A stretch of DNA of 53,571 bases, from positions 1 to 53,571 of the forward strand of contig JASHPO010000030.1 in NCBI GenBank assembly GCA_030038075.1. The letters are read 5' to 3'. A program made the translations under genes and the position numbers. Under the pieces are notes generated by a model. It ran no database searches and was not told the DNA's origin. It saw only the letters and a program-made list of their open reading frames with translations. This DNA is from Nitrososphaerales archaeon (GTDB lineage: Archaea; Thermoproteota; Nitrososphaeria; Nitrososphaerales; CADDZS01). Of the stretch, positions 2,050 to 52,844 are shown piece by piece (position 1 is the stretch's first letter; each line of letters begins with the position of its first letter).

Positions 2050-2559
2050 ATGTCAACCCAAAGTCCTACAGACACGGAAAGCGAAGTAGTGGAAACGAGC
2101 TCGCCCAAGCCCGTTGAGATAATTTCGACGATTAAATCTCTCCAAGTCGAGTCAGAGCGTATCAAGGACGTTCTCGACATGGAAAAGGCCTGCGCCCAAG
2201 AGGTTGCGGGGGTGATGAAGCACTTTTTGGAGCAGATTGGCAAATCTTACTCACTCAGCCCGGCAATGTTCCCGAAACTAGGGCGAGGCGTTAAGGAGAT
2301 AATTCTCACCCCGCAGGGCGTATTTTTCCTGGATTATGCCGACGGAACGAAGGTAGCTAGGACTTTTGACAACCTGGCACCGGACAGTCTGATCAAGGTG
2401 CTCGATTACATACTTCCCGACGTAAAGCAGCTGCTCATGGAGCGGCGGCAGAGACTCTCGGACAGAGCAACGATGCTCGAAGAGGTCGCGGCGGAGTTGA
2501 GTAAGATACCAAACCTCCCCAAAGCGGCAAAGATTGCTACGCCTGCGAGATCGGACTAA
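2050..2559 (+). CDS. Hypothetical helical protein
   Basis: A 169-aa soluble protein of unknown function. A disordered acidic/Ser-Thr N-terminus (1-25) is followed by a long helical stretch (IKSLQVESERIKDVLDMEKACAQEVAGVMKHFLEQI, 28-64). A small central domain (ILTPQGVFFLDYADGTKVARTFDNLAPDSLIKVLDYILPDV, ~90-130) and a charged helix (MERRQRLSDRATMLEEVAAEL) complete it. The ATG follows a strong leader hairpin. Its 3' end overlaps the convergent radical SAM gene by 23 bp. Confidence 0.65.
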   Translation: MSTQSPTDTESEVVETSSPKPVEIISTIKSLQVESERIKDVLDMEKACAQEVAGVMKHFLEQIGKSYSLSPAMFPKLGRGVKEIILTPQGVFFLDYADGTKVARTFDNLAPDSLIKVLDYILPDVKQLLMERRQRLSDRATMLEEVAAELSKIPNLPKAAKIATPARSD

Positions 2560-3415
2560 AGTCGTCGAGCGTTTTCGTCGGCTCTCTACTCCATTCTAGA
2601 ACAGAGTACGAGTCAAGACCGTTGCTACTAACTAGTTTCGCGATCTCTTCACGGACTTCTTTTTCCTTTCGCATGACACTGGCAGATCTTAGGTTCGTCC
2701 TTTGCTCGAACATTATTCGTGATTCCTCGTAGCCGATGAATCGGAGCATCCCGAAGACGACACAGGAAACGCCGCTTTTCTTCAATTTTTTCAGTAACAT
2801 GCCTACGTCTTCTAGGACAAGCTGCGGAATTACCGGCGCCATCGAGACCCACGTTGTTATGCCATGTTCATGCAACCTGCGCAGTGTTTCAATTCGCCGC
2901 GAAACTGAAACAACTCCGGGTTCGTAGAATTTGTTGCTCACCGACGAAATCGAGCAACCCACCCGAAGCCATGTAAATTTCTTCAGCAAGTCAGTGTCCC
3001 TCAAGACTAGAGGCGATCTCGTGAGAATTATCACCGGGAAATCTCGCTCGAGGAGCGCTTCAAGACAGCGTCTCGTAATCTTGAATCTTGCTTCAACCGG
3101 CTGATAGGGATCTGACGCGCTGGAAAGGAAAACGACTTCCTTCTCATGAATTTGTCCGAGTTCTTTCCTCAATAGCTGTGGCGAATTGGCTTTCGCATCC
3201 ACAAAGTAACCCCAGCGCCTCTCATCATGAATCAGCGACGGCGCGTAACAGTACACACAGCCGTGAGTGCAACCCCGATAAAAATTGGCGGTATACTCTG
3301 ATACATGGCTAAAGTTCATCCTGCGAAGGACAGTGCTGCATTTAACCTCACGCACTTCGAGTGCCCTTCCTGAATGCGGCTTGACTTCATACTGTAAACT
3401 CGCGAGTTGCATCAT
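2537..3415 (-). CDS. Radical SAM protein, spore-photoproduct-lyase-like
   Basis: A 292-aa enzyme. The radical SAM motif C49-x3-C53-x2-C56 (RGCTHGCVYCYAPS) binds a 4Fe-4S cluster for SAM cleavage. The GCVYCYAP context and the downstream FLSSASDPYQPVE and VIILTRS motifs are typical of the SPL/Rv2578c-like radical SAM group. The substrate is unknown; the family is often called repair-related only because of SplB. I start it at the ATG at 3415 (MMQLASLQYEV; ATG at 3412 also possible), because the upstream open frame is unlike the family and crosses the promoter. A 20-bp palindrome also found near radA lies at 3448-3467. Confidence 0.8.
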   Translation of the reverse strand: MMQLASLQYEVKPHSGRALEVREVKCSTVLRRMNFSHVSEYTANFYRGCTHGCVYCYAPSLIHDERRWGYFVDAKANSPQLLRKELGQIHEKEVVFLSSASDPYQPVEARFKITRRCLEALLERDFPVIILTRSPLVLRDTDLLKKFTWLRVGCSISSVSNKFYEPGVVSVSRRIETLRRLHEHGITTWVSMAPVIPQLVLEDVGMLLKKLKKSGVSCVVFGMLRFIGYEESRIMFEQRTNLRSASVMRKEKEVREEIAKLVSSNGLDSYSVLEWSREPTKTLDDFSPISQA

Positions 3416-3447: not shown

Positions 3448-3467
3448 TTACTGTAATATTACTGTAT
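3448..3467. promoter_or_regulatory. Shared 20-bp palindromic operator, copy 1
   Basis: TTACTGTAATATTACTGTAT matches the perfect palindrome at 10951-10970 at 18 of 20 positions. It lies 33 bp upstream of the radical SAM ATG. Its AT-rich centre could itself act as the TATA box, so a bound protein would block the promoter. Confidence 0.6.
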
Positions 3468-3591: not shown

Positions 3592-4350
3592 TTGCGTTTT
3601 CCATTTTCTTCAAAAAGTCAAAGTGACGAGAAATCTGACGATTATTCACTCGGATCATCCGAGCATTTTGAGTGGCGAGCGCAGGAACGTCGGGAAAGCG
3701 TGCGTAACGCAGACTGGATCATAAAGAACGCAATCCCATACCTTGAAAGAGCCTACTTTCTCTACAAGAATGAACTACTGAAACTTGGAGACGCAAACAG
3801 ACTACCGATTAAGGTCGTTGTGAGACCTAGTTTGGATTGTCAGGGCGGGATAGCGGGCGCGACTGGAAACGGCGAGTTGAGTTACTGCGCCGGAAACTGG
3901 GCTTCGAATGAATTTTGCTACGGAATCTTGGCCCACGAACTCTGTAACCTTTTCACAGGCGAGCGCGTGAGCTCTGGGTGGCCCGAAGATTGGTGGGCAA
4001 ATCACCGTTCGCCGTTCCCGACGATGATTGCAAATCAGGCGCTTCGAAGACTGGTTCCCGAATATTACAGGAAGTGGGGAAATTACAGCGATCCGCTGGT
4101 CGTTATGTTTGAAAGGTTTCAAAATGACCATCCCGGTATGTTCCCGAAGATGTTTCAGAAAATGAGGGAACTCGGTGTCACTCTTCCAAGATATCAAGAG
4201 CCGTACTTGAGCCACGTAGTGTACTATTTCATCTTCTACGGCGCCGGGAGTCAGCAGATCTCGAGGTATTTCGTTGCTCCGCCGATGCCTCCGATAAATC
4301 CGACAATAATAGTGAGCGTAGAAGACAGGTTTCATCTGGGAGTTGTCTAG
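3592..4350 (+). CDS. Zincin-like hypothetical protein with an incomplete HExxH
   Basis: A 252-aa soluble protein without a signal peptide. FCYGILAHELCNLFTGERVSSGWPEDWW (about residues 102-130) looks like a metallopeptidase active-site helix, but the second His is Asn (HELCN instead of HExxH). Conserved-looking blocks follow, e.g. WANHRSPFPTMIANQALRRLVPEYY. It may be an inactive peptidase-like protein or a binding protein. The start is TTG at 3592. It is divergent from the radical SAM gene, with the shared palindrome between them. Confidence 0.6.
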   Translation: MRFPFSSKSQSDEKSDDYSLGSSEHFEWRAQERRESVRNADWIIKNAIPYLERAYFLYKNELLKLGDANRLPIKVVVRPSLDCQGGIAGATGNGELSYCAGNWASNEFCYGILAHELCNLFTGERVSSGWPEDWWANHRSPFPTMIANQALRRLVPEYYRKWGNYSDPLVVMFERFQNDHPGMFPKMFQKMRELGVTLPRYQEPYLSHVVYYFIFYGAGSQQISRYFVAPPMPPINPTIIVSVEDRFHLGVV

Positions 4351-10950: not shown

Positions 10951-10970
10951 TTACAGTAATATTACTGTAA
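10951..10970. promoter_or_regulatory. Shared 20-bp palindromic operator, copy 2 (perfect)
   Basis: TTACAGTAATATTACTGTAA is a perfect 20-bp palindrome. It sits 9 bp upstream of the TATATAG box (10980-10986) of the small membrane-protein gene and about 130 bp upstream of the divergent coiled-coil/glycosyltransferase operon. It could control either or both. Confidence 0.7.
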
Positions 10971-10979
10971 CTTTCGAAG

Positions 10980-10986
10980 TATATAG
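10980..10986 (+). promoter_or_regulatory. TATA box of the small two-TM protein gene
   Basis: TATATAG lies about 26-28 nt before a predicted start of transcription near 11009. It is directly downstream of the perfect palindrome. Confidence 0.5.
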
Positions 10987-44046: not shown

Positions 44047-45087
44047 CTAATTCTCTTCCTCTTCGTCCTTTTCTATAGCGCTCTTGCTGGCAGTTCTCAC
44101 CGTCCTTGCCGGTTTTTTGTCCATCGGGTCTGATATTCCGCTCTCGGTGACTACGAAGTTCGTGTCGCCGTAGGGGTGCATCGGGCTGTCTATCATTATC
44201 GCCTTTCTCTCCTGCCCGGCCTTGCGCAGGTAAATCCTGTAAGTAGACGCATGCCCTATGATGTTTCCACCCGCCGCTTTTGTCGGGTCTCCAAAGAAGG
44301 TGTCCGGCGTTGCCTGCACCTGGTTTGTGATTATCACCGCAACGTTGTAAATCTCAGATATTCTCTTGAGCCTGTGCATTATCGCGTTGAGCTTTTGCTG
44401 GCGCTCGGAAAGAGAACCCCTTCCCAGAAACTCCGCCCTGTGCAGGCTGATTATGCTGTCCACTATGACCAGTTTGATGTTGTTTTGCTGGATCAGGCTA
44501 CCCATTGCCCTAACTATCAGTTCTAGGTGACTGGCGTTGTATATCTTTGCGACGTGAATGTTGTCCAAAACGCTGGACACGTCGAGGTCCCGAGACTTTG
44601 CTATCTGGGCTACTCTCTCCGGGCGAAAAGTAGATTCCGTGTCGATGTATAGCGCCGCGCCACCCAGTCCTTTTTGATCTACGGGTAGCTGTGAAGCAAC
44701 GCATACGGTATGGCAGATCTGCGTTTTTCCAGAGCCGTACTCGCCGTAAAATTCTGTCACGGCCTGGGTCTCTATGCCTCCCGCGAGCAGCGTATCAAGA
44801 TTCTGCGAGAATGTCGTGCATCTTAACATCTTGGCCCTCCTTGCAAAAAGCTCGTTCGCCGAGATCAAGTCTTTTTCCAAAATGCCCTTGTCCTTCAATA
44901 TCTTCTGGGCTTCGAAAACCAGATTGTGCGCCGTTTCCTCCGTGATGTTCAGGTTGTCCACGAGCTCGTTTGTGGTCGAGGCCGCGAGGTCGAGTATCGA
45001 AGTTATTCCGCCGCTTTCCAGTTTCGCCTTCGTCGCGGGTCCCACACCCGGCAGGTCCGCGATGTCAATTTCTATTGCTTCGCTCAT
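44047..45087 (-). CDS. radA: DNA repair and recombination protein RadA
   Basis: A 346-aa archaeal RadA recombinase. An HhH domain (LPGVGPATKAKLESGGITSILDLAAS, 12-37) precedes the RecA/Rad51 core with Walker A GEYGSGKT (115-122), LYIDTESTF, Walker B LVIVD (D210), SLSERQQKL (ATP cap) and VIITNQVQATPDTFF. The C-terminus is acidic (EKDEEEEN). It forms ATP-driven filaments on single-stranded DNA and exchanges strands. ATG 45087. The shared 20-bp palindrome lies at 45116-45135, between its TATA box and predicted transcription start, so repression there seems likely. Confidence 0.97.
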   Translation of the reverse strand: MSEAIEIDIADLPGVGPATKAKLESGGITSILDLAASTTNELVDNLNITEETAHNLVFEAQKILKDKGILEKDLISANELFARRAKMLRCTTFSQNLDTLLAGGIETQAVTEFYGEYGSGKTQICHTVCVASQLPVDQKGLGGAALYIDTESTFRPERVAQIAKSRDLDVSSVLDNIHVAKIYNASHLELIVRAMGSLIQQNNIKLVIVDSIISLHRAEFLGRGSLSERQQKLNAIMHRLKRISEIYNVAVIITNQVQATPDTFFGDPTKAAGGNIIGHASTYRIYLRKAGQERKAIMIDSPMHPYGDTNFVVTESGISDPMDKKPARTVRTASKSAIEKDEEEEN

Positions 45088-45115: not shown

Positions 45116-45135
45116 TTACAGCAGAGTTACTGTAA
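45116..45135. promoter_or_regulatory. Shared 20-bp palindromic operator, copy 3 (radA)
   Basis: TTACAGCAGAGTTACTGTAA keeps both half-sites of the perfect palindrome (TTACAG and TTACTGTAA; 16 of 20 positions match copy 2). It lies directly downstream of the radA TATA box. Confidence 0.6.
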
Positions 45136-45144
45136 CTATATACG
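45136..45144 (-). promoter_or_regulatory. TATA box of radA
   Basis: Minus-strand CGTATATAG lies about 50 nt upstream of the ATG, giving a ~25-nt leader without a Shine-Dalgarno. It abuts the palindrome. Confidence 0.55.
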
Positions 45145-48041: not shown

Positions 48042-48533
48042 CTAGAAAGGTCTCTTCCTCCACGTTCTGACTGTCTCAAACCAGGCAAAAAGGCTCGCAA
48101 AAAGACCGAAAGCAACAGCGAATGGATCTATTCCCCTTGAAAAAAAGACCACCAGATAGCCGAGAAGAAGAGTAGTAAAGAACACCGCGTAGAACGTGAA
48201 GCGCGGTACTAGCAGTCTTCCGATCTGCGTGAACGCTTGGAGGACGTTCACGTTTGAATTTTTTAATAGAACGTACTCGCCGTACTCGTTTTTCTCAATG
48301 AGACCCAACCTCGTCAGTTTGTCAAGATGGTGGTAGGCAACGCTCGCACTGGATAGACCGAGAGCTCTCTGAAGCTCGCGCACGCCGACCGACTTGCCGC
48401 TCTTCAGGATAAACAGGTACGCCCGCAACGTCCTTCCGCGCAGTTCCGATTCAATCTCGGAGCTTGAAGGAGTGTCTTTGCTCTTCTTGGGGAGCGGCGC
48501 AGAATTATCATCTGAGGGGTCGTTTTCCTTCAA
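48042..48533 (-). CDS. Membrane-anchored winged-helix regulator (module 2)
   Basis: A 163-aa paralogue of the 12734-13219 protein. A disordered charged head (~1-28) is followed by a wHTH (LRGRTLRAYLFILKSGKSVGVRELQRALGLSSASVAYHHLDKLTRLGLIEKNEYGEYVLL, ~30-92) and two TMs (~108-130, 135-152). It may sense membrane or surface state and control the mucin-like gene ending 62 bp downstream on the same strand. ATG start. Confidence 0.8.
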   Translation of the reverse strand: MKENDPSDDNSAPLPKKSKDTPSSSEIESELRGRTLRAYLFILKSGKSVGVRELQRALGLSSASVAYHHLDKLTRLGLIEKNEYGEYVLLKNSNVNVLQAFTQIGRLLVPRFTFYAVFFTTLLLGYLVVFFSRGIDPFAVAFGLFASLFAWFETVRTWRKRPF

Positions 48534-51973: not shown

Positions 51974-52415
51974 GCTAGAGGAATCAACGAGAGGAGAGAG
52001 GGGGCGCGATTACTACTGAAGAAGAGCCTGAAGGCATAAATGACATACGCATCGGTTGAGGCACGAATTGTGCATTGGAAAAGTTGTCAGCCGCTTTTAA
52101 CCTCCCAACGTAGCACCATCGTCAGGAGTAGGACACTGCCAACATAGTCTACCATCACGGAAATACACAAAGGTCTAGAAGGGATGTAAATGTCGCATAA
52201 TAAAATCAGCGTTTTTGCTCTATTTGCAACGTATTGCTCTAAATATGTGCTAATTTGAAAATCCAAAGGCCCTACACGTTACTGTAAAATGGAAGGCTCA
52301 CTCTCGTTACGGTAACTAAAGGCAATATGTGGAATTGCTTGCGGACTGTTGCGCGACAATACTTTCTCCGTTTGGCGTAACTAAGAAATGCTACTCAGTA
52401 GAGGAGAATCGCTTC
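51974..52415. other. Intergenic region with half-sites of the shared palindrome
   Basis: No convincing gene is seen. GTTACTGTAA (52278-52287) and GTTACGGTAAC (52306-52316) repeat with 28-bp spacing and resemble the half-site of the radA-type palindrome. GCACGAATTGTGC (~52052-52064) is a short inverted repeat. AT-rich boxes could serve promoters of unknown direction. Confidence 0.3.
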
Positions 52416-52844
52416 TTACTTGGACTTGATATGTTCCAAATCTGGCGGTTCGCGAGGTCTCTTGCCAAGGAACCTTTGATTCTCTTGGGCTCCCTGTAAC
52501 ACGGCGGCTACCAACCCCACAATCGCAAAAATAACAAGTGGAGACACTACAACTACTAGAACTCCGAATGTTGTTAAATTTGAAAGCTGAATTGCGAAAA
52601 AGCCAAAACCGGTGGTCATTCCTCCGACTCCGAAGAGTGCAAAAGTCAGGGAGACATACAATGTATCACTGTAGACCAATGAATTTCCATCGGGCACGAT
52701 CGTTTGGATAGCGTTTGGATAGTATGGGTGGCTTGTACAGGGCATTGCACAACGCGAGACAAGCGTCGTTTGAAAGAACGGCACTAGAAACAGAATTAGA
52801 AATGCCGCCACTGAGATCGGAATTAGGAGTAATTTCTTGTTCAT
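52416..52844 (-). CDS. Small membrane protein with Cys pair
   Basis: A 142-aa protein. The N-terminal TM (~4-26, LLLIPISVAAFLILFLVPFF) is followed by an external region with cysteines (SRCAMPCTSHPYYPN), two further TMs (~65-85 and 95-118), and a basic tail (ENQRFLGKRPREPPDLEHIKSK). The end of TM1 (FLVPxx) and the Cys pattern recall the 29097 small protein. Function unknown. ATG start. A 7-bp inverted repeat lies ~105-120 bp upstream. Confidence 0.65.
   Translation of the reverse strand: MNKKLLLIPISVAAFLILFLVPFFQTTLVSRCAMPCTSHPYYPNAIQTIVPDGNSLVYSDTLYVSLTFALFGVGGMTTGFGFFAIQLSNLTTFGVLVVVVSPLVIFAIVGLVAAVLQGAQENQRFLGKRPREPPDLEHIKSK

Follow-up and report, generated by a model that had tools for sequence, protein, structure and literature searches.

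The described systems closest to the locus analysed here are the LexA/SOS response, the Sulfolobales damage response, the PolB2 mutasome operons and the RHH repressors that act on tandem sites (TraM, AvtR and the Arc/MetJ type). The LexA operator is CTG-N10-CAG. The damage response of the Sulfolobales uses a hexanucleotide DDRE (ANTTTC) read by Orc1-2, an Orc1-type AAA+ winged-helix regulator (PMC9738581), and PolB2 operons elsewhere in archaea often adjoin orc1/cdc6 genes (PMC11791011). The stretch of DNA that we compared with these systems, referred to below as the window, is the forward strand of positions 1–53,571 of contig JASHPO010000030.1 (assembly GCA_030038075.1, Nitrososphaerales archaeon; 53,571 nucleotides), and its characteristic element is a box made of tandem TTACWGTAA units. 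As in the LexA/SOS system, a single operator stands before genes for a recombinase, an error-prone polymerase, a nucleotide-excision protein and a regulator, and the regulator would be autoregulated with the operator near the transcription start (the role of the RHH protein as regulator is inferred here). The differences from that system are the tandem units in place of CTG-N10-CAG, the RHH-like regulator, the archaeal promoters and a family-B mutasome where bacteria have Pol V or ImuB. With the Orc1-2/DDRE system the locus shares the character of an archaeal regulon of DNA-damage genes, but it has tandem palindromes and an RHH-like protein, and a DDRE was rejected as the shared element is the TTACWGTAA tandem and not ANTTTC. 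The PolB2 mutasome operons (PMC11791011, PMC4104785) are matched in having PPB2, iRadA and PolB2 in one operon and in their GRT, DxD and Walker A hallmarks, but differ in that a fourth gene of about 103 aa lies here between iRadA and PolB2 and that solitary PolB2 genes carry a box of their own. The likeness to RHH repressors lies in the strand-helix-helix order (from a low-confidence model), the short palindromic unit, the helically phased tandem arrangement and autoregulation (inferred, as there are no binding data); the unlike features are an additional Cys/His C-terminal domain, a repair regulon as the set of targets and the failure to reach any Pfam family.

A LexA box was also considered and rejected, as the spacing is wrong (inside the box the CWG-to-CWG distance is 8 bp, W is A or T at both positions and the units repeat at 11 bp) and no convincing LexA was found. 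Matches to LexA_DNA_bind cover mostly about 30–45 of 65 positions in frames of 137–217 aa, and archaeal controls match likewise. It is likely that the regulon functions like SOS (the function being inferred) without being a member of it, since the operator differs and a search by the DNA-binding domain gave no LexA with a peptidase. One partial LexA_DNA_bind match in the window belongs to a 163-aa winged-helix protein (48042–48533, minus strand) that also matches ArsR, IclR and TrmB HTH families and has no peptidase; it is more likely an ordinary archaeal HTH regulator. In the passages of PMC11791011 and PMC4104785 consulted neither the box nor the regulator is mentioned, and no earlier description of either was found in the literature searched (subscription papers not covered), which supports the claim of an earlier note on the window that this archaeal operator is undescribed.

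That note, made from sequence alone, had proposed one 20-bp palindrome at three promoters, with matches by chance very unlikely. A scan of the window upheld the perfect match to TTACAGTAATATTACTGTAA at 10951–10970 and the 18/20 match at 3448–3467; no further match with three or fewer mismatches is present in the window and 100 dinucleotide shuffles of it gave none to this pattern, so these two palindromes are not expected by chance. The third site (45116–45135, TTACAGCAGAGTTACTGTAA, 16/20 against TTACAGTAATATTACTGTAA) also held, though by a different route: the half-site pattern alone has 3 matches in the window against 1.1 expected, which is not significant, and the site was accepted as real because the box is conserved upstream of RadA2 orthologs fetched by protein similarity. 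All three are promoter positions as claimed, that at 3448 on condition that 3415 is taken as the start of the radical-SAM gene. The first possible ATG of this ORF is at 3658, and 3415 was preferred because the orthologs resemble the 292-aa version only from about its residue 13 onwards. The claim that needed correction was the unit itself: as there are three-unit arrays, at radA and in relatives, the single 20-bp palindrome was dropped in favour of a 9-bp TTACWGTAA unit with 2 bp between neighbours (11-bp centre-to-centre period). The proposed targets radA and the SPL-like gene held, supported by the RadA2 orthologs and by radical-SAM orthologs with boxes. So did the small membrane protein (no Pfam family), whose ortholog in G002 (L130) sits behind a three-unit array; the glycosyltransferase operon suggested as a target of the 10951 box is unsupported, as the adjoining 112-aa gene starts 98 bp off and no ortholog of it was found behind a box. 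The features are collected in Table 1. With at most two mismatches to the unit pattern, the whole genome to which the window belongs (G000) contains 7 sites; NreA and DUF5343 add two weaker ones.

Table 1. Positions of the boxes, promoter elements and associated genes (window coordinates unless a contig is named)
Feature	Position	Strand	Evidence
Perfect box, two TTACWGTAA units, 11 bp centre to centre	10951..10970		Identical 20-mers in G000:C121, G002, G004, G006, G008
Box (18/20) ahead of radical-SAM gene	3448..3467		Orthologous boxes in G002, G004, G006
Three-unit box of RadA2 gene, TAACTGTAT-GA-TTACAGCAG-AG-TTACTGTAA	45105..45135		Sequence and RadA2 orthologs
TATA-like element TATATAG shortly 3' of perfect box	10980..10986	+	Sequence
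TATA-like element GTATATAG immediately upstream of radA box	45136..45143	-	Sequence
Remnant: lone unit TTACTGTAA (52279-52287) and decayed C-terminal PolB2 fragment (52323-52427)	52279..52427	+	tblastn 86% over 35 aa
RadA2, second RadA paralog, intact Walker A (GEYGSGKTQ)	44047..45087	-	Rad51 8e-85
SPL-like radical-SAM protein, 292 aa from 3415	2537..3415	-	Radical_SAM 9.6e-17
Small membrane protein, 90 aa	11002..11274	+	Start 31 bp past perfect box
Good RHH copy of the window's genome	G000:C144:14120-14485

Conservation was examined in the family of the window (f1; nine genomes including the window's own, the named relatives being Nitrososphaerales MAGs). Searching with TTACWGTAANNTTACWGTAA at two mismatches gave 81 sites in the nine genomes against 4 for the reversed-pattern control, and a stricter form of the box is present in all nine but absent from the 32 genomes searched in 16 further families of the order. 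After merging, 71–72 of 72 sites were intergenic, though coding sequence makes up 64% of the total (p about 2e-30), and the one site inside a predicted gene is probably a start-codon artefact. Two of the outcomes by which the earlier note would have been refuted, copies inside genes (0–1 of 72) and lack of conservation in relatives (conserved in 9/9 genomes), were thus not observed. The motif, its conservation and its promoter position are shown, and we consider it very likely that the box is a real, conserved control element ahead of DNA-repair genes in this family. In 53 promoter boxes several positions are invariant in both units and the unit centre is A or T, but it should be noted that this invariance is overstated since the boxes were chosen mostly by motif; likewise the f1 loci L118–L185 were selected by motif, which makes the target rates and the 11-bp spacing found there partly circular.

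For RadA2 and the RHH gene this circularity does not arise, as their loci were fetched by protein. RadA2 has a box of two or three units no more than about 60 bp upstream in 6/6 named loci obtained in this way. Several named f1 genomes have a second RadA, 50–53% identical to RadA2, without a box, and no box was seen at the named RadA loci other than f1 RadA2. From its intact Walker A, RadA2 is inferred to be an active RadA. All other target counts come from loci gathered by the box; they tell that a target recurs, not how often its orthologs as a whole have a box. An operon of PPB2, iRadA, the ~103-aa protein and PolB2 follows the box in seven f1 genomes (PPB2 was undetected in one), with the mutasome trio adjacent in one operon at L142, L128, L180 and others; its iRadA lacks Walker A, its PPB2 has the GRT N-terminus and PolB2 motif C (HGIVDSLW) is missing the first D of DxD. 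PolB2 has its own box in four genomes. The SPL-like radical-SAM gene follows a box in four genomes, the window's included, and its G004 ortholog matches SPL PF20903 (6.7e-7). The remaining box genes encode a PCNA paralog (PCNA2, 2 genomes), NreA (3), UvrA (1), a DUF5343-like protein (7), small membrane proteins, a PAC2 protein and an AAA protein. This target list is shown, and its recurrent members are largely DNA-repair or damage-tolerance genes.

Three side observations concern these genes. The gene of ~103 aa that lies between iRadA and PolB2 is conserved (L142:2857-3168; orthologs in L118, L128, L137, L148, L180 and L181) and has no Pfam family; its product may be a fourth part of the PolB2 mutasome. 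At L178:4050-7004 PolB2 is split by an intein (Intein_splicing 1.2e-12). In G007 six copies of a TnpB-type element (L166, L168, L169, L170, L172 and L173) have the box ahead of tnpB, as if, possibly, a transposon had joined the regulon.

The candidate regulator is a protein of about 123 aa with the N-terminus MPKEGFSVxTIT and a C-terminal C..C-x-H. The presence of the box at its gene is shown: in 8/8 f1 genomes that hold the gene, which was found by protein search and not by motif, the box lies immediately 5' of the start. A second copy in the window's genome (L119:7294-7662, G000:C38) is interrupted by a TGA but retains an intact box. That the protein is an RHH factor is likely but rests on weak homology. 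Profile matches in Pfam were sub-threshold only (RHH_5, E=0.018; VAPB_antitox, 0.045), and in the PDB RHH proteins were among the top matches but again sub-threshold (TraM, 0.037; AvtR, 0.49). A low-confidence AlphaFold2 model (pLDDT 51), built on virus homologs and not on the f1 sequence, has the strand-helix-helix order (E9–11, H13–25, H38–52). The C..C-x-H pattern of the C-terminal domain prompted the idea of a SWIM zinc finger, but Pfam gave no SWIM match, and the possible zinc ligands are only partly kept in f1. The protein probably regulates its own gene, an inference made without binding or expression data. Two IMG/VR viral contigs (L261 and L262) encode homologs of it, with no box close upstream; viral control of the host response is a possibility.

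Other families were reached through the RHH orthologs. Tandem boxes lie directly upstream of these in f8 (TTACGGTTATTTACGGAAT), f10 (TTCCGTAGTTTTACCGTA) and f2 (GTACTATAACGTACTATG), and f14 also has a diverged box upstream of its ortholog; in f14 (L344, G034) radA starts a few bases after the RHH gene, giving a two-gene operon. No clear box was seen by eye at the second RadA genes of f8. The second family in which the box could be followed, f9, is large and very diverse (reached only by starting from RHH orthologs), and from its size and number of genera we infer that it may be the Nitrosopumilaceae (marine ammonia oxidisers), the named radA loci being indecisive. Here the box has diverged to TACSGTA with a 10-bp period: the exact TACSGTA-N3-TACSGTA occurs at 143 sites in 61 f9 genomes against 5 for controls, while counts at 1–2 mismatches in five or six of these genomes gave no clear excess over the reversed-pattern control. 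At nearly all f9 RHH loci read, GTACyTTAAnGTACGGTAA or a near-match lies between TATA and start, and radA has a box in the same place, at its start, in 5/5 genomes first examined. The f9 box is also found ahead of a 114–115-aa winged-helix-like gene and of a 61–75-aa gene divergent from trpE, and directly before a conserved 35-aa protein, M..CEYCP..F.E...GL..KTFHE.LH.PE.VN. (L247, L249, L250, L256, L263 and L266).

The RHH protein was found in 52/55 f9 genomes and in 37/37 of the nearly complete ones. Across f9 there are fewer boxes as the RHH protein diverges (Spearman 0.56, p=1.6e-5), and where an exact box is lacking, the RHH proteins that could be fully scored (six genomes) are among the most diverged (Mann–Whitney p = 1.7e-4); in most cases the RHH and radA promoters of the genomes lacking an exact box still have degenerate boxes. 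It should be noted that a common phylogenetic cause may lie behind both the loss of boxes and the divergence of the RHH protein. Between families, the strand FS(V/I)(V/I)TI goes with the W-centred box TACWGTA (f1) and FK(S/T)ITV with the S-centred TACSGTA (f8, f9, f10 and f14). This is what direct reading by the RHH strand would predict, but with one switch only it is no more than suggestive.

As regards promoter geometry, 32 of 53 promoters have a TATA-like sequence (loose pattern) directly upstream of the box. The element ends right before the box at the promoters of RadA2 and RHH, at several of those of PPB2 and at most of those of DUF5343. In f9 the gap between TATA and start is filled by the box. 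At about seven promoters a TATA-like element is seen only downstream of the box; PCNA2, NreA, PAC2 and some membrane-protein genes are of this kind. Because the TATA elements usually sit just upstream of the box, the regulator is probably a repressor. The reading that we think likely is that Thaumarchaeota have an SOS-like DNA-repair regulon with the box as its operator, held by an RHH repressor that damage releases; RHH binding, repression and the damage signal are all inferred, and with no expression data induction by DNA damage in particular is inferred from gene content. Each TTACWGTAA unit would bind one RHH dimer, with neighbouring dimers one helical turn (11 bp) apart and binding cooperatively. 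An array between TATA and start, or against BRE/TATA, would block TBP/TFB or RNA polymerase, and where the box is upstream of the sole TATA the bound protein would cover BRE or could activate. The RHH protein would repress its own gene, RadA2, the PolB2 mutasome operon, the PCNA paralog, NreA and the SPL-like and other genes until DNA damage, probably sensed via the Cys/His-containing C-terminal domain, released it (the signal step again being inferred). The DNA-damage or stress regulon suggested by the earlier note is in this sense supported by conservation and repair targets. Against an SOS-like reading is the fact that some box genes (membrane proteins, DUF5343, TnpB) are not repair genes.

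Three other readings of the regulon survive as unlikely. The first keeps a repair regulon with this operator but gives the box to another binder, for example a winged-helix factor, the RHH gene being merely a target. In its favour, the f9 114–115-aa winged-helix-like gene also has a box and the homology of the RHH protein is weak by sequence; against it, no homolog of the winged-helix protein is found at f1 boxes, the RHH gene has a box in every f1 member with the gene and a diverged one upstream of the f2, f8, f10 and f14 orthologs, the residues of the RHH strand change along with the box centre, and the RHH gene shares an operon with radA in f14. The second, likewise unlikely, has the regulator as an activator of repair genes or in a dual role set by box position, as the PCNA2, NreA, PAC2 and some membrane-protein genes with a TATA-like element only after the box might indicate; at RadA2, RHH, several PPB2, most DUF5343 and all f9 promoters, however, a protein bound to the box would sit between TATA and start codon and should prevent initiation. 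The third, also improbable, makes the regulon a response to a different signal (desiccation, oxidative stress, growth phase or mobile-element entry), with the repair genes as just one group among its members. The boxes of small membrane proteins, DUF5343 and TnpB elements and the RHH protein on two virus contigs speak for this, but the recurrent targets are RadA, the PolB2 mutasome, PCNA, NreA and UvrA, and PolB2 operons have been reported to be damage-induced (PMC11791011). That the palindrome is due to chance, or is a repeat element with no regulatory role, is all but excluded. The weakness of the third window site on its own speaks for this, but orthologous genes keep the box, the count is 81 against 4 for controls and the sites are excluded from genes.

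A damage-responsive RHH operator in a repair regulon thus remains the preferred interpretation. A bolder version, to which we lean only slightly, is that Thaumarchaeota, f9 included, have an SOS system of their own, in which an autoregulated RHH repressor with a Cys/His sensor would control radA, joined in one of the families by a family-B translesion mutasome; its origin would be independent of LexA, with viruses carrying the regulator and TnpB elements the box. How repair is switched on in archaea without LexA is largely an open question outside the Sulfolobales. That question becomes testable in Thaumarchaeota now that an operator is defined there and a candidate repressor and a list of targets are at hand, and the second family, f9, may include cultivable species.
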